Shown: positions 7,199 through 13,445, counted from the first letter of the stretch. The stretch is 64,000 bases of DNA from Flavobacteriales bacterium (GCA_905339165.1 CAJPFH010000005.1:124001-188000), one strand, 5' to 3'. Numbers and translations: made by a program. The notes: a model not told the origin generated them from the letters alone.

Positions 7199-9295
7199 TT
7201 AAACCTTCACTCCTATTATACTCACATCATCTACTTGTTCGTTTTTGCCTTTCCAAGTTTCAAATACGGCATTTAGTACAGATTCTTGTTCTTTCGGTGT
7301 TTTATGATGGATGCTTAGCAGCAACTCTTTTAACTGAGCTGCTTTAAATTTCTTTCCATTCTCCCCACCAAATTGGTCGGCAAATCCGTCTGTAAAAATA
7401 TAAACGATGTCGTTTTTATTTAACTGAATTAGCTGGGTAGTAAAAGGGATTGGATTTTCTGTTTTGCCAATAGGTTGCTTATTGGGTTTAAACTCTATTA
7501 ATTTACTATCTCTCACTATCCAAAGCGGATTATTAGCTCCTGCCCATTTTAATGTAATTTGGTTTTTACCAGATGCATCTAAGCTACAAATAGAAATATC
7601 CATTCCATCTTTCACATCTTCATCGCTTTTAGAAAATTCTTGTACTACTAATTCTCTGGTTTTATCCAAAATTTTTCCAGGTTCTATTAAATTAAATTCT
7701 CTCACACTTCTATTTAACGCATTGTTACAAACCACGCTTACCATGGCTCCTGGAACACCATGTCCGGTACAGTCAGCAACTGCATACAATACCGAATTTT
7801 CATTTTTTTCAAACCAATAAAAATCTCCGGCCACAATGTCTTTTGGTTTGTATAAAATAAAACTTTCCGGCAATACCGATTCTACTGATTTTAGAGAGGG
7901 TAAAATGGCACTTTGTATTCTTTTTGCGTAATTAATGCTATCGGTAATGCTTTTATTCTTTTCTTCAATTAACCTATTTTTGTCATTCAAAATTTTATTT
8001 ATTCTTTTACTCTTTATTTGTTGTGCTATAATAAGAAGAACAATACAAATAAGTAAAGCAGAAGCTCCTATGGAAAAAATAAATTTCTGTTTTTGTTTGT
8101 TTAACTCCAGTTCACTGTTTTTTAATTTTATATTCGTTAGTTCTAACTCCCTTTCATTTTTCTCCTTATCTAATTTATTTTTAAGAAGCTCTATTGTTTT
8201 CAGGTTTTCAGTATTAAAAAGCGAGTCTTTTATAACAAGATAATTATTTAAACTCTGCAAGGCCGACTGGTAATCTTTTTTCTCTTTATAGATTTTATAA
8301 AGAAGGTTATGTGATTCTTTTTCTAATTCCAGCAAGGAAAATTCTTTGGCCATGCCAATGGCTTTTTCTAAAATAGGAATTGCTAAATGAAATTGCTTTT
8401 GTTTAAAATAAAAATTCCCCAAGCGACCGTACGATTCGGCAATTCCCCTTCGATTATTTAATGCCGTACGTATCTCTAATGATTTGTTCAAATATTTAAA
8501 TGCATTTTTATCATCTCCCATTGCATCATAAATATCGGCCAAACAACTATATGTTTCTCCTATAGCCGCTTTTTTATCCATTTTTACCCAAATCTCCATG
8601 GCCTCATTAGTCATTTCTAATGCTTTGTTATATTCTTTTTTATGAGTGTAGATAATAGCTGTATTTACCAATAACTTGGCATAGTTAGTTTTATTTATAT
8701 CTTTTTTATAAATCTCTAAGGCATACTTAAAATATTCTAAGGCTTTACTAGTATCTCCCTGCGAATTGTATATAATAGCAATATTATTGTATGAGCCGGC
8801 TGCGTCATATTCTCTACCTATTTCCTCTGCGATTTTAATTGCTTTTGTGAGATATTTCATAGCTTCAGAAAAATTAGAGGTTTGACGATGTAACACTCCA
8901 CACTGATTATATATCGAAGCCAACAAGTTTGAATCGTTATATTCTTCCGCCTCTTTAATCACTTTCTCCATTTCTTTAAAAGCATTATCGGTTTCGCCCA
9001 TATCAAAAATAGATACCACTCTTTTTAATTTTCCGAAAATAACAAAATGCATATTGTTTATCTGGTTTGCGTGAAAAATCGTTTTATTTGAATAAAACAA
9101 CTGCTTTTCGGCATTAATACCCCTGTAGAATTCAGATAATCTCGAATAACACATCATTTTTATACTGTCGGAATTCGATTGCTCAGCAACCCGCAAGATG
9201 GAGTCGGCCAGTTGGTAGTTCTGCGAACACATCTGCTTCGAATAAAAAAATAAAATCAATAACAAGAGAACTATACGGATACAGAATTTGCTCAT
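7199..9295 (-). CDS. TPR sensor protein with SpoIIE-type PP2C phosphatase domain
   Basis: The 698-residue product has an N-terminal signal peptide (about residues 1-25), roughly eight TPR repeats (about 30-360), a coiled-coil rich in Lys and Glu, one membrane helix (about 405-425), a second coiled-coil linker and a C-terminal SpoIIE/PP2C domain (about 475-698). Metal-binding acidic positions are visible in IVAGDFYW (Asp491), DCTGHG (508-513), YIFTDGFADQ (about 635) and DDVS (689-690), so the phosphatase should be active. The topology suggests periplasmic TPRs sensing a partner and a cytoplasmic phosphatase output, as in many Bacteroidota signalling proteins. No anti-sigma or STAS partner lies nearby, so the target is unknown. 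Confidence 0.88.
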   Translation of the reverse strand: MSKFCIRIVLLLLILFFYSKQMCSQNYQLADSILRVAEQSNSDSIKMMCYSRLSEFYRGINAEKQLFYSNKTIFHANQINNMHFVIFGKLKRVVSIFDMGETDNAFKEMEKVIKEAEEYNDSNLLASIYNQCGVLHRQTSNFSEAMKYLTKAIKIAEEIGREYDAAGSYNNIAIIYNSQGDTSKALEYFKYALEIYKKDINKTNYAKLLVNTAIIYTHKKEYNKALEMTNEAMEIWVKMDKKAAIGETYSCLADIYDAMGDDKNAFKYLNKSLEIRTALNNRRGIAESYGRLGNFYFKQKQFHLAIPILEKAIGMAKEFSLLELEKESHNLLYKIYKEKKDYQSALQSLNNYLVIKDSLFNTENLKTIELLKNKLDKEKNERELELTNIKLKNSELELNKQKQKFIFSIGASALLICIVLLIIAQQIKSKRINKILNDKNRLIEEKNKSITDSINYAKRIQSAILPSLKSVESVLPESFILYKPKDIVAGDFYWFEKNENSVLYAVADCTGHGVPGAMVSVVCNNALNRSVREFNLIEPGKILDKTRELVVQEFSKSDEDVKDGMDISICSLDASGKNQITLKWAGANNPLWIVRDSKLIEFKPNKQPIGKTENPIPFTTQLIQLNKNDIVYIFTDGFADQFGGENGKKFKAAQLKELLLSIHHKTPKEQESVLNAVFETWKGKNEQVDDVSIIGVKV

Positions 9296-9357: not shown

Positions 9358-9365
9358 TACCTTTG
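9358..9365 (+). promoter_or_regulatory. -7 element TACCTTTG of thiamine operon 1
   Basis: TACCTTTG matches TAnnTTTG and ends 5 bases before the first paired base of the TPP riboswitch, so transcription should begin right at the aptamer. Confidence 0.6.
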
Positions 9366-9370
9366 ACCAC

Positions 9371-9447
9371 ACTTTAGGGGTGTTTGCAAAAGCAGACTGA
9401 GAAAAACCCTTTTACCTGATACCGGTAATGCGGACGAAGGGAAAAGT
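9371..9447 (+). ncRNA. TPP riboswitch 1 (THI element)
   Basis: All conserved blocks of the TPP aptamer occur in order: AGGGGTG, CTGAGAA, ACCCTTTTACCTGAT, TAATGC and GAAGGGAA, with a closing P1 helix ACTTT (9371-9375) paired to AAAGT (9443-9447). The P3 arm is minimal. It precedes the YkoF-like/PnuT/kinase operon and should repress it when thiamine pyrophosphate is plentiful. A pyrimidine- and T-rich stretch (9450-9476) directly follows and can pair partly with the 3' strand, so a terminator-type platform is possible but weak. Confidence 0.93.
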
Positions 9448-9488
9448 AAATTCTTCTTCTTTTTTTGCACTCCTATAAAATTCATTCC

Positions 9489-9737
9489 ATGAAAACGACT
9501 ATTGAAATTAGCATGTATCCGCTCAATGCCGACTACATTCCTATCATCTCCGAATTTATTGAAAGACTAAATACATACCAAAATATAAAAATAAAAACCA
9601 ATGCCACCAGCACACAAATTGTTGGAGAATATGAAGAGGTAATGGATTTATTAAAAAATGAAATTAAATCTTCGTTTAAAAAACACGGTAAAGCTATCAT
9701 GGTAATGAAAGTGCTAAATGGAGAACTGGATATTTAA
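9489..9737 (+). CDS. Stand-alone YkoF-like thiamine/HMP-binding protein
   Basis: The 82-residue protein begins KTTIEISMYPLNADYIPIIS and ends VMKVLNGELDI. This matches a single YkoF-type ferredoxin-like repeat (Ykof/MTH1187 family), whose B. subtilis relative has two copies and binds thiamine or its HMP moiety. It has no signal peptide. It lies directly after the TPP riboswitch, and its last 20 bases overlap the PnuT gene, so it belongs to the thiamine operon. I chose the ATG at 9489 over the upstream TTG at 9465. Binding to a pyrimidine precursor in the cytoplasm is inferred from family and context. Confidence 0.8.
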   Translation: MKTTIEISMYPLNADYIPIISEFIERLNTYQNIKIKTNATSTQIVGEYEEVMDLLKNEIKSSFKKHGKAIMVMKVLNGELDI

Positions 9738-10311
9738 TAATACCTCTCTCCTATTGGAAATAATGGCCGTAATGTTGGGAATTCTTTACGTTATTCTTGC
9801 GGCACGCTTAAATATTTACTGCTGGATTTTTGGCATTATTGGTTCATTAATCAGTATTTACATTTTTATATTTTATGCAAAGCTCTATTCAGAAGCCCTT
9901 CTTTATCTGTTTTACGTTATTGCCGGAGTTTACGGCTGGATAAATTGGGCAAACAAAAAAAAGAACATATCTGAAGTATACTCAAACTCTGTTCCTAAGA
10001 ATCTTCTGATTATTTTGGGTGGGATTATTTTTTCTTTAGTTCTTTACAAGGTAATAACCTACTTTTTTCTTGACGCACAAAAACCTCTTATAGATTCGTT
10101 TACAACGGTATTTAGCATTATTGCCACCTATTTAACCGCAAAAAAACGTTTAGAAAACTGGCTATATTGGATAGCCATTGATGCCCTTACCACTTATCTC
10201 TATTATTCACGAGAATTAGAAATTTATGCCCTATTAATGCTCTGCTATACATTAATGGCTGCCTATGGATTTATAAGATGGAAAAAACTAAAAGTCATTA
10301 AGATTGTTTAA
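9718..10311 (+). CDS. pnuT: PnuC-family transporter, probably thiamine-specific PnuT
   Basis: The 197-residue protein has about seven membrane helices and PnuC-family segments: RLNIYCWIFGIIGSLISIYI, YVIAGVYGWINW (the Y-G-W-x-x-W motif) and a closing TLMAAYGFIRWKK. PnuC carriers move nicotinamide riboside by facilitated diffusion, while PnuT relatives carry thiamine. Control by a TPP riboswitch and the YkoF-like neighbour argue strongly for thiamine. It overlaps the upstream gene by 20 bases and the downstream kinase by 8, indicating translational coupling. An alternative ATG lies at 9763. Confidence 0.88.
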   Translation: MENWIFNNTSLLLEIMAVMLGILYVILAARLNIYCWIFGIIGSLISIYIFIFYAKLYSEALLYLFYVIAGVYGWINWANKKKNISEVYSNSVPKNLLIILGGIIFSLVLYKVITYFFLDAQKPLIDSFTTVFSIIATYLTAKKRLENWLYWIAIDALTTYLYYSRELEIYALLMLCYTLMAAYGFIRWKKLKVIKIV

Positions 10312-10822
10312 TAAAATAGTAATCACAGGGCCCGAATCAACAGGAAAATCTACGCTTTCAGAGGCGTTGGCCATGCATTATAAAACTACATGGGTAAATG
10401 AATATGCTCGCCAATATCTTTCGGCATTAAATAAGCCATATACTTTTGAAGACGTAATAGAAATGGCTAAAATGCAACTTGTTTCTGAAAAAAAAATATA
10501 TCATAAACCACCTCAGTGTATTTTTTTCGATACTGATTTAACGGTGTATAAAATTTGGATAGAAGAAAAATACCACACCGAGGTAGACTGGATTAATCAA
10601 GAGTTAAAAAATACCAGAGATAAACTTTACCTGCTTTGCAATATTGATTTGCCTTGGTTTGCAGACCCACTAAGAGAGCACCCCGATATTACCGATAGAC
10701 AGCGTATTTTCAATAAATACATTGCTTTAATGAATGAATATCATTTCGATTTTTACATCATAAGCGGGCAACAAAACGAACGATTAAAAAAATCCATACA
10801 AATTATTTCAAATCAAAAATAA
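10304..10822 (+). CDS. NadR-like P-loop kinase/ATPase in thiamine operon
   Basis: The 172-residue protein carries a Walker A motif GPESTGKSTL at residues 8-17, followed by YARQYL, FFDTDLTVYKIW and DPLREHPDITDRQ, which resemble the ribosylnicotinamide kinase domain of NadR (AAA_28 type). It starts at TTG 10304, overlapping pnuT by 8 bases. In PnuC systems the kinase traps the imported nucleoside; here TPP control makes thiamine phosphorylation the more plausible job. This is inference: by sequence alone it could still be a nicotinamide riboside kinase. No adenylyltransferase domain is present. Confidence 0.78.
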   Translation: MFNKIVITGPESTGKSTLSEALAMHYKTTWVNEYARQYLSALNKPYTFEDVIEMAKMQLVSEKKIYHKPPQCIFFDTDLTVYKIWIEEKYHTEVDWINQELKNTRDKLYLLCNIDLPWFADPLREHPDITDRQRIFNKYIALMNEYHFDFYIISGQQNERLKKSIQIISNQK

Positions 10823-10827
10823 GGGCA

Positions 10828-10835
10828 TACATTTG
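10828..10835 (+). promoter_or_regulatory. -7 element TACATTTG of thiamine operon 2
   Basis: TACATTTG begins 6 bases after the stop of the kinase gene and ends 6 bases before the second riboswitch. The TonB receptor therefore has its own promoter and aptamer and does not rely on read-through. Confidence 0.6.
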
Positions 10836-10841
10836 CCCCGT

Positions 10842-10943
10842 CTCACATAGGGGTGCTCTGTTAAAAGGGCTGAGATTATACCCGTTTTTTCTGTTTTATA
10901 ACAGAAAAAGGAACCTGATCCAGATAATGCTGGCGTAGGGAGT
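10842..10943 (+). ncRNA. TPP riboswitch 2, with an extended P3 arm
   Basis: Conserved TPP-aptamer blocks are in order: ATAGGGGTGC, GGGCTGAGAT, ACCC, GAACCTGATCCAGATAATGC and TGGCGTAGGGAG. Between ACCC and ACCTGAT there is a long extra hairpin (about 10884-10910; arms TTTTTCTGTT and AACAGAAAAA), the variable P3a insertion known in some TPP riboswitches. It precedes the TonB-dependent receptor by about 60 bases, and that linker contains TTGCCCCTT, which could compete for the P2 strand AGGGGTG. Confidence 0.95.
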
Positions 10944-11003
10944 TTAAATAGAATAACCAAGCAAGTGTTTGCCCCTTGGCATTTGTCAAAAAAAAATAGT
11001 ATT

Positions 11004-13445
11004 ATGAAAAAAATTACTTTTTTGACAGTAACATGGCTTCTTTCGTTTCACTGCTACTCTCAGTACAACCTTAGCGGTACAGTATTAGACACACTCAATA
11101 AACCCTTAGTGGGAGCAACCGTTAGAATTTTAAACAGTTTTAGAGGAACTGCAACAGACAATAATGGCTCATTTAAATTTACTAATTTAAAACAGCAAGA
11201 ATACTTTGTTGAAGCGAGTTTTATAGGATATGAAACGCAACAAAAACAAATTTCCAATCTTTCGGAAAATACTGAAATTCATTTTATACTACAAGAATCG
11301 AAAAATACTTTAGATGAATTAATTGTAACAGCTACTCGTGTAGAAGAAAATTCACCCATAGTGCATACAAATATTTCGTATTCCGAAATCGAGAAAAACA
11401 ACTTGGCTCAGGATGTTCCTGTATTGCTTCAAAACGCTGTTTCTATGGTATCCACCAGCGATGCCGGAGCAGGCGTAGGTTATACTTCGTTCCGCTTAAG
11501 AGGTTCCGATGCCACCCGCATTAATGTTACCATTAACAGTATTCCTGTAAACGATGCCGAATCACAAGGGGTGTGGTGGGTAAATATGCCTGATTTTATT
11601 TCAAGTACCGAAAACATACAAATTCAAAGAGGCGTTGGTGCCTCTACAAATGGTGCTGGAGCTTTTGGTGGAACCGTAAACCTACAAACTACTACATGTA
11701 AAGAAAAAGCGTATGCTGAAGTAGCCTCATCGGCTGGCTCTTTTAATACTCAAAAATATACCTTTAAAACAGGTACAGGACTCATTAATAATCATTTTAC
11801 ATTCGATGCAAGAGCCTCTAAAATCAGTTCAGATGGCTATATAGACCGCGCTAGCTCCGATTTAAAAAGCTATTATCTATCGGCCGGATATTACGATAAC
11901 AAAACTTCGTTAAAAATTATTCAATTTTCGGGAAAAGAAATTACTTATCAGGCATGGTGGGGTACTCCTGAAAGCCGTATTAAAGGAAACCAAGAAGCTA
12001 TGCTTACTCATGCAATGAACAATGGATTAGATTCTGTCGAAACAGAAAATCTCATAAACTCAGGTAGAACCTATAATTATTATCAATATAAAAATGAAAT
12101 AGACCACTACACTCAGGATCATTTTCAGTTGCATTTTACACATCAGATGAATGAATATTTTTCAGCTAATGTTTCTTTGCATTACACTTACGGAAGAGGT
12201 TATTACGAACAATACCGAAAAAAAGATGAATTCTCTAAATACGCATTGTCCGATGTGGTTATAGGAAACGACACTATCCAATCAAGTGATTTTATTAGAA
12301 GACGATGGCTCGATAACCATTTCTACGGTACAGTTTATAATGTAAATTATAAAAACAATTCGCTTTCTGCTACTGCTGGTGGAGGTTATAATATTTACGA
12401 TGGAACTCATTTTGGAGAACTTATTTGGGCCGAATTTGCCAGCAATTCCAAACTAAACCAACGGTATTATCAGAGCAACGCTTTAAAAACCGATTTAAAT
12501 CACTTTTTAAAAATAGATTATTCCCTTACTGAAAAATGGCTATTATACGCAGATATGCAGGTGCGAAACATTGCTTATAACACAAAGGGTTCCGATAATG
12601 ATTTAACTCTGATTCATATTGATACTACTTTTGTTTTTGTTAACCCAAAAGGAGGAATCAGTTTTCAGCCCAATAAAAAAATAAGAACGTATGCATCAGT
12701 TAGTGTGGGTAACAGAGAGCCTGTTCGAAGCGATTTTATTGATAATCCCCAAAACAAACAGCCTAAACACGAAACCCTTATCGACTATGAAGCAGGTTTA
12801 AATTTCAATGCCAAGAAAATTTCTTTGCAAACAAATTTTTATTTTATGGATTACAAAAACCAACTGATACTTACCGGAGAGTTAAATGATGTAGGCACTC
12901 CTATTCGCAGCAATGTAAATTCGAGTTACAGGGCAGGTGTTGAACTTTCGGGCAAAATGCTACTAAGCAAAAAACTGAATGCGAATTTTAATACAACCCT
13001 ATCTCAAAATAAAATAAAAAAATTCACCGAAATTATCTACGACTACACTAACGGGTTTGATGTAGTGGAAAACATCTATTCCAACACGGATATTGCTTAC
13101 TCGCCCAATATCATTGCTGCATTTGGCTTAGATTATTCTCCTGTAAAATCTCTTACCTTAGCCATACAGTCAAAATATGTGGGGAATCAATTTCTTGATA
13201 ATACTTCGAACACAAAAAGAATGTTAGACCCCTATTACACCACCGATGCAAGAATAACGTATCTACTTTACGCCAAAAAGATAAGAGAGATTTCCGTATC
13301 GTTTATGGCTTATAATATTTTCAATACACTCTACAGCAGCAATGGATACACTTTTAGTTATATGTATGGCGAATTAATCACTGAAAATTTTTACTATCCA
13401 CAGGCAGGAACAAACTTTATGGCAGGAATATCTGTAAAGTTTTAA
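11004..13445 (+). CDS. TonB-dependent outer-membrane receptor, probable thiamine importer
   Basis: The 813-residue protein has a signal peptide (about 20 residues), a carboxypeptidase-regulatory-like domain (NLSGTVLDTLNKPLVGATV, about 22-105), a TonB plug (ELIVTATR to GGTVNLQT, about 110-235) and a 22-strand-type barrel ending in the aromatic terminus GISVKF. TonB receptors use energy from ExbBD-TonB to bring scarce ligands across the outer membrane. The TPP riboswitch in its leader points to thiamine or a phosphorylated form as ligand, matching the OMR1 receptors described for Bacteroidota thiamine regulons. The start is the ATG at 11004; the upstream in-frame GTG at 10965 would put the hydrophobic signal too far inside. 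Confidence 0.92.
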   Translation: MKKITFLTVTWLLSFHCYSQYNLSGTVLDTLNKPLVGATVRILNSFRGTATDNNGSFKFTNLKQQEYFVEASFIGYETQQKQISNLSENTEIHFILQESKNTLDELIVTATRVEENSPIVHTNISYSEIEKNNLAQDVPVLLQNAVSMVSTSDAGAGVGYTSFRLRGSDATRINVTINSIPVNDAESQGVWWVNMPDFISSTENIQIQRGVGASTNGAGAFGGTVNLQTTTCKEKAYAEVASSAGSFNTQKYTFKTGTGLINNHFTFDARASKISSDGYIDRASSDLKSYYLSAGYYDNKTSLKIIQFSGKEITYQAWWGTPESRIKGNQEAMLTHAMNNGLDSVETENLINSGRTYNYYQYKNEIDHYTQDHFQLHFTHQMNEYFSANVSLHYTYGRGYYEQYRKKDEFSKYALSDVVIGNDTIQSSDFIRRRWLDNHFYGTVYNVNYKNNSLSATAGGGYNIYDGTHFGELIWAEFASNSKLNQRYYQSNALKTDLNHFLKIDYSLTEKWLLYADMQVRNIAYNTKGSDNDLTLIHIDTTFVFVNPKGGISFQPNKKIRTYASVSVGNREPVRSDFIDNPQNKQPKHETLIDYEAGLNFNAKKISLQTNFYFMDYKNQLILTGELNDVGTPIRSNVNSSYRAGVELSGKMLLSKKLNANFNTTLSQNKIKKFTEIIYDYTNGFDVVENIYSNTDIAYSPNIIAAFGLDYSPVKSLTLAIQSKYVGNQFLDNTSNTKRMLDPYYTTDARITYLLYAKKIREISVSFMAYNIFNTLYSSNGYTFSYMYGELITENFYYPQAGTNFMAGISVKF

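Follow-up and report, generated by a model that had tools for sequence, protein, structure and literature searches.

The thiamine locus of this Flavobacteriales bacterium, located in a window of 64,000 nucleotides (the whole stretch of DNA that was analysed), consists of two units on the + strand, each of which lies behind its own TPP riboswitch aptamer. The first gene of unit 1 encodes a small thiamine-binding protein of the YkoF/Thiamine_BP type (82 amino acids, 9489..9737, +; PF07615, 2.5e-7, and PF01910, 2.1e-6). It is followed by the gene of a PnuC-family transporter, PnuT (197 amino acids, 9718..10311, +; PF04973, 7.7e-46), with thiamine as the predicted substrate, and by a gene with a TTG start for an AAA_28 or NadR-RNK-like kinase (172 amino acids, 10304..10822, +; PF13521, 5.1e-29), a predicted thiamine kinase. 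Unit 2 encodes an OMthi-like TonB-dependent outer-membrane receptor (813 amino acids, 11004..13445, +; PF13715, PF07715, and PF00593) with a carboxypeptidase-regulatory-like domain at the N-terminus. The original prediction of a YkoF-like protein, PnuT, and a NadR-like kinase in unit 1 and a TonB receptor in unit 2 is confirmed by these Pfam matches.

The genes of unit 1 overlap (ykoF/pnuT 9737/9718, pnuT/kinase 10311/10304), which suggests a single transcript with coupled translation. PnuT is defined as a PnuC-family transporter encoded in a TPP-controlled operon; the protein has the PF04973 match and aptamer 1 lies upstream of its gene. Its sole sequence relative in the PDB is PnuC (4qtn). 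OMthi is defined as a TonB receptor behind a TPP aptamer, a position taken here by aptamer 2, and the receptor would likewise transport thiamine. The relatives of the bacterium also keep a TonB receptor adjoining a TPP aptamer. On the minus strand, a gene for a regulator with TPR and SpoIIE-phosphatase domains (7199-9295) is orientated divergently from unit 1 and has the upstream region in common with it.

Structure and origin of the two TPP aptamers

The original prediction of two TPP aptamers, about 1.5 kb from each other on the same strand, was borne out by the Rfam model RF00059, which found both. In this covariance search, aptamer 1 (9366..9459, +) reached 66.5 bits and exceeded the gathering score of 54.3; aptamer 2 (10843..10958, +) remained below it with 47.0 bits, but with an E-value of 3.4e-7 in the local scan and 5.4e-8 genome-wide. 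The RF00059 search of the 3.16-Mb genome (136 contigs, estimated 100% complete) did not reveal a third TPP element. The core (CUGAGA, ACCUGAU, GCG-AGGGA) is conserved in both aptamers. Aptamer 1 is canonical and has a P3 of about 5 bp. The supposed contrast between a minimal and an extended P3 had to be rejected, as both P3 stems comprise about 5 bp; the real difference is a hairpin in J2-4, which is present in aptamer 2 and missing from aptamer 1. The P3 of some YkoF-side or related aptamers in other genomes (L106 in G017, L084 in G018, and L107 in G023) is swollen by AU-rich CTTTCAATTTTCAACT-like stretches, which resemble inserted repeats.

The extra hairpin of aptamer 2 (10 bp, UUUUUCUGUU-UUAU-AACAGAAAAA, 10886..10909, +) is placed after ACCC, the 3' strand of P2, and before ACCUGAU. 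Strong covariation among TonB-side aptamers from related genera shows that it is conserved. Among 14 distinct related sequences, 97.6% of the cells pair and two-sided changes occur at eight of the nine scored pairs; sliding the partner strand by 1-3 columns lowers the pairing to 58-69%. Genera g1, g5, g8, and g14 have the hairpin in their TonB-side aptamers; the TonB-side aptamers of the other genera lack it. The Rfam alignment puts it in the wrong place, and because it lies outside the model, aptamer 2 scores below the gathering threshold. Compared with RF00059, aptamer 2 has the common core and layout shared by both aptamers (CUGAGA and ACCUGAU), but four helices meet instead of the usual three. 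In published structures, J2-4 helps to align the two sensor helices (PMC3764141). The A immediately 5' of CCUGAU is kept in all sequences, so that the hairpin looks like a peripheral addition. A report of a J2-4 helix in TPP aptamers was not found in a literature search. As the helix shows, a further arm can be accommodated in the three-way junction of TPP aptamers, and members of this kind escape the Rfam cut-off.

The original prediction regarded the pair as a duplication of the control element, a view that is unsupported because the two aptamers fall into different groups. In the core alignment, the TonB-side aptamers with the hairpin form a clade of their own (support 0.97). Aptamer 1 lies outside this clade, and its closest relative after that of the sister species is an aptamer of a thiC operon (83% identity), although this placement near thiC-type aptamers is weakly supported, with about 60 nt aligned. 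Between the YkoF-side and the TonB-side type, about 67% of the core is shared; on this ground, and because of the separate TonB-side clade, a recent tandem duplication of one of the aptamers was rejected. Six of the examined genomes with YkoF (G000, G004, G017, G018, G023, and G035) contain the YkoF-side aptamer, whereas it was not detected in G006-G011, G016, G019, G021, G022, G036, and G038; the pattern search overlooks G000 and G004 because of their shorter spacing, but another search covered both. The receptor-side aptamer is the constant one, and most of the order has no aptamer before the pnuT-kinase genes. Such a combination of a constant receptor-side and a patchy YkoF-side aptamer is not that of a fresh duplication splitting a control element.

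Promoter elements and candidate switching strands

A match to TANNTTTG, which we take to be the Bacteroidota -7 consensus, precedes each aptamer: TACCTTTG in unit 1 (9358..9365, +) and TACATTTG in unit 2 (10828..10835, +). The -7 element proposed for aptamer 2 is thus present, but it does not distinguish this aptamer from aptamer 1. The mere presence of TANNTTTG is no evidence, as the window contains many such words (93 matches, 106 expected). The evidence lies in its position: in 31 of the 33 TPP leaders of the order, which are related to each other, TANNTTTG is located 18-28 nt upstream of the P2 GGGG, with 0.9 expected from shuffled upstream stretches. Because of this conserved position, each aptamer most likely has its own transcript start, almost at P1. 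An intrinsic terminator on the + strand was not found between the two units, and the transcript of unit 1 may run on into unit 2.

Candidate anti-P2 strands were identified downstream of both aptamers. The putative expression-platform strand of unit 1, GCACTCCTA (9467..9475, +), is complementary to UAGGGGUGU at 9375-9383, and that of unit 2, UGCCCCU (10970..10976, +), to AGGGGUG at 10849-10855. In the ligand-free minimum-energy fold of leader 1, the P2 5' strand UAGGGGUGU pairs with GCACUCCUA (9467-9475); independently, AGGGGUG pairs with UGCCCCU in that of leader 2. TPP binding requires P2, and the anti-P2 and TPP-bound states are therefore mutually exclusive. Related leaders show comparable complementarity (combined p 2.7e-8); given their relatedness and the weakness of most tests on single leaders, it is taken as supporting evidence only. 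An intrinsic terminator was considered as expression platform and rejected, because none follows either aptamer on the + strand. In Bacteroides thetaiotaomicron, thiamine did not significantly alter the transcript levels of the transport operons (PMC5613172), so that the control may be translational.

The anatomy of the leaders supports the view that the outer-membrane and the inner-membrane unit are controlled separately, as each has its own promoter element, aptamer, and candidate switching strand. This part of the original prediction would stand; the different TPP dose attributed to the P3 arms is unsupported, since these arms are alike.

The gap in the thiamine pathway and the candidate kinase

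Neither ThiC nor ThiE was found in this genome. As judged from this gene content, the host bacterium is a thiamine auxotroph and must import B1. TPK (thiamine pyrophosphokinase, PF04263) and ThiK (TIGR02721) were detected in none of the 39 genomes of the order, this one included; ThiL is present in all of them. With TPK and ThiK missing and only ThiL kept, nothing recognised adds the first phosphate to thiamine, and ThiL cannot act on thiamine itself. The kinase encoded in the TPP-controlled operon is the obvious predicted candidate for this first phosphorylation. The original prediction named this protein without giving it a role at the locus, of which it is the part least accounted for. A genome survey of the B1 pathway lists ThiK, ThiM, and ThiN as salvage enzymes and no NadR-like protein (PMC6593275). 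Our literature search did not retrieve a link between NadR-like kinases and thiamine, although an earlier mention in Rodionov et al. (2002, JBC) is possible.

The Pfam match of the kinase is AAA_28 and not the catalytic domain of TPK (PF04263). The AlphaFold model (pLDDT 93) has a P-loop kinase fold, and its best match is the NadR RNK domain (Foldseek, 8x7f, TMq 0.84), followed by thymidylate kinases; the predicted structure is thus that of the NadR RNK fold. The protein itself is not a NadR by the NCBIfam model, as it scores 80 bits against a cut-off of 341 and matches only positions 161-320 of TIGR01526. Compared to the NadR RNK domain (PDB 8x7f, 1lw7, 6gye), fold, Walker A, E-x-x-R (E33-x-x-R36), and DTD motifs and residue D76 are common to both, but the kinase is a stand-alone protein of 172 amino acids without an NMN adenylyltransferase domain, has about 20% identity, and is encoded in thiamine loci. 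W85 and K89 are invariant across 24 thiamine-locus kinases.

Distribution of the kinase and its gene neighborhoods

The distribution of the kinase was analyzed in 39 genomes of the order and in 296 genomes of the class. Thirty genomes of the order encode the kinase (a weak match in G013 was left out; contig ends truncate a few copies). All 30 also have PnuT, which is found in addition in G019 as a copy truncated at a contig end. Kinase and ThiC largely exclude each other in the order (3 genomes with both, 27 with the kinase only, 7 with ThiC only, 2 with neither; p 2e-4). In the class, for which a strong kinase match was defined as an E-value of at most 1e-18, the kinase was detected in 170 genomes and TPK in 61, with both in five (165 kinase only, 56 TPK only); 70 of the 296 genomes had neither in these searches. 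The exclusion of kinase and TPK has a p-value of 2e-19 by genome, the genomes not being independent owing to shared descent, and of 0.006 by family, a much weaker result. In families f34 and f52, some genomes have the kinase only and others TPK only, as expected of a displacement. Four of the five genomes with both belong to one genus, and the kinase may have another role in these five. In that genus, which also has TPK, the two kinase proteins read, L184 (G228) and L185 (G099), are fusions to DUF4301 (PF14134, 670 bits for the L185 protein); they may hint at the function of DUF4301.

As tnr3, the gene encoding TPK, directly follows pnuT in Bacteroides (PMC5613172) and a NadR-like kinase gene does so here, an exchange of the enzyme encoded behind PnuT seems to have taken place. 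The kinase replaces TPK in phyletic pattern and operon position, which would also be expected if it were itself a direct thiamine pyrophosphokinase, converting thiamine to TPP in one step as a stand-in for Tnr3/ThiN. We regard this as unlikely. Only one phosphate is transferred by NadR-RNK and by the thymidylate kinases related to it, and ThiL is kept in 293 of the 296 class genomes and throughout the order, even where ThiE is missing and there is otherwise no source of thiamine monophosphate (TMP). The retention of ThiL in such genomes favors a thiamine kinase over a pyrophosphokinase. The near universality of ThiL would also suit an import of TMP by the receptor and PnuT, with ThiL alone completing TPP and the kinase having an unrelated role; this is highly improbable, since the kinase tracks PnuT almost perfectly and PnuT-type facilitators take unphosphorylated vitamins and depend on a kinase for trapping.

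The kinase gene adjoins a PnuC-like gene, ykoF, and often a TonB receptor gene in Chryseobacterium, Winogradskyella, Dokdonia, Algibacter, and others. The gene order in many Flavobacteriaceae is phosphopantetheinyl transferase, GGGP synthase, YkoF, PnuC, kinase, a gap of about 2 kb, and TonB receptor; in Chryseobacterium it is GGGP synthase, YkoF, PnuC, and kinase. GGGP synthase and phosphopantetheinyl transferase genes upstream of the PnuC-kinase genes were observed in L135, L138, L140, and L146 (Flavobacteriaceae). Before the receptor, TPP aptamers of at least the gathering score were found in Botryobacter, Hymenobacter, and Pontibacter, and sub-threshold ones in Dokdonia (52.0 bits) and Algibacter (37.1 bits, weak); several other flavobacterial loci examined revealed no TPP aptamer. 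Pairs of PnuC and a stand-alone NadR-like kinase are also encoded in Pseudomonas (L149-L151) and Sphingomonas (L153, L156), where no TPP element was detected and nicotinamide riboside is the default reading.

NadR-like kinases are usually annotated as enzymes of NAD metabolism. According to this database annotation, PnuC and the kinase would be a nicotinamide riboside uptake pair that merely neighbors the thiamine receptor. PnuC and NadR are indeed the best named matches of the transporter and the kinase, and the pairs in Pseudomonas are similar, but here a TPP aptamer, followed by the gene of a thiamine-binding YkoF protein, heads the PnuC-kinase operon, and the kinase is devoid of the NMNAT half of NadR. 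Moreover, genus g5 and G036 have ykoF-pnuT at another location, yet their kinase gene has remained next to the aptamer and the receptor. A nicotinamide riboside pair is therefore very unlikely at this locus.

Proposed model of thiamine salvage and comparison with known systems

We propose, with a probability of roughly three in four, that the region is the thiamine-salvage locus of an auxotroph, composed of two separately started TPP-controlled units, in which the NadR-like kinase is a thiamine kinase feeding ThiL. The proposal draws on what the DNA contains, namely the aptamers, -7 elements, anti-P2 complementarity, and gene families, together with ThiL and without ThiC, ThiE, TPK, or ThiK in the genome. 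The TonB receptor of unit 2 would bring thiamine into the periplasm. Unit 1 would supply the thiamine-binding YkoF protein, the inner-membrane facilitator PnuT, and the kinase, which would phosphorylate incoming thiamine to TMP and thereby trap it metabolically; the separately encoded ThiL would then convert TMP to TPP. TPP would bind both aptamers, upon which P2 would form, the anti-P2 strand would be freed, and expression would fall. We infer the substrates of kinase, transporter, and receptor, as well as the direction and level of regulation.

On a broader scale, it seems probable, if somewhat less so than the reading of the locus itself, that a hitherto unassigned family of stand-alone NadR-RNK-like kinases provides the thiamine kinase of most TPK-less Bacteroidia, that many pairs annotated as "nicotinamide riboside transporter PnuC / NadR-like ATPase" serve thiamine uptake and trapping, and that the receptor-side aptamer of one clade gained the J2-4 helix as a new structural variant. 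Aquatic and gut communities are shaped by the exchange of thiamine, and the prediction of B1 requirement from genomes depends on which salvage enzymes are known. TPK is missing from about four fifths of the class genomes sampled, whereas ThiL is present in nearly all. With a named candidate for the missing kinase, this gap becomes testable, and an annotation in wide use would be corrected.

Paired riboswitches of this kind are nothing unusual in the phylum, and split TPP control of pnuT and a TonB receptor has already been reported in Bacteroides (PMC5613172). The newer point is the kinase assignment, a prediction with good comparative support. Its predicted logic is that of the ThiK and ThiL route of Escherichia coli, in which a kinase converts thiamine to TMP and ThiL converts TMP to TPP. 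The proteins differ, since ThiK is of the aminoglycoside-phosphotransferase type and TIGR02721 has no match in the order. In B. thetaiotaomicron, TPP riboswitches likewise control separate outer- and inner-membrane units, OMthi (BT2390) and pnuT-tnr3 (BT2396-2397), and a thiamine-phosphorylating enzyme is encoded after PnuT, as predicted here (Costliow and Degnan 2017, PMC5613172). There, however, the enzyme is a TPK (Tnr3) and thiamine is also made, whereas the locus described here has a NadR-like kinase and an additional YkoF protein, in a genome without de novo synthesis.
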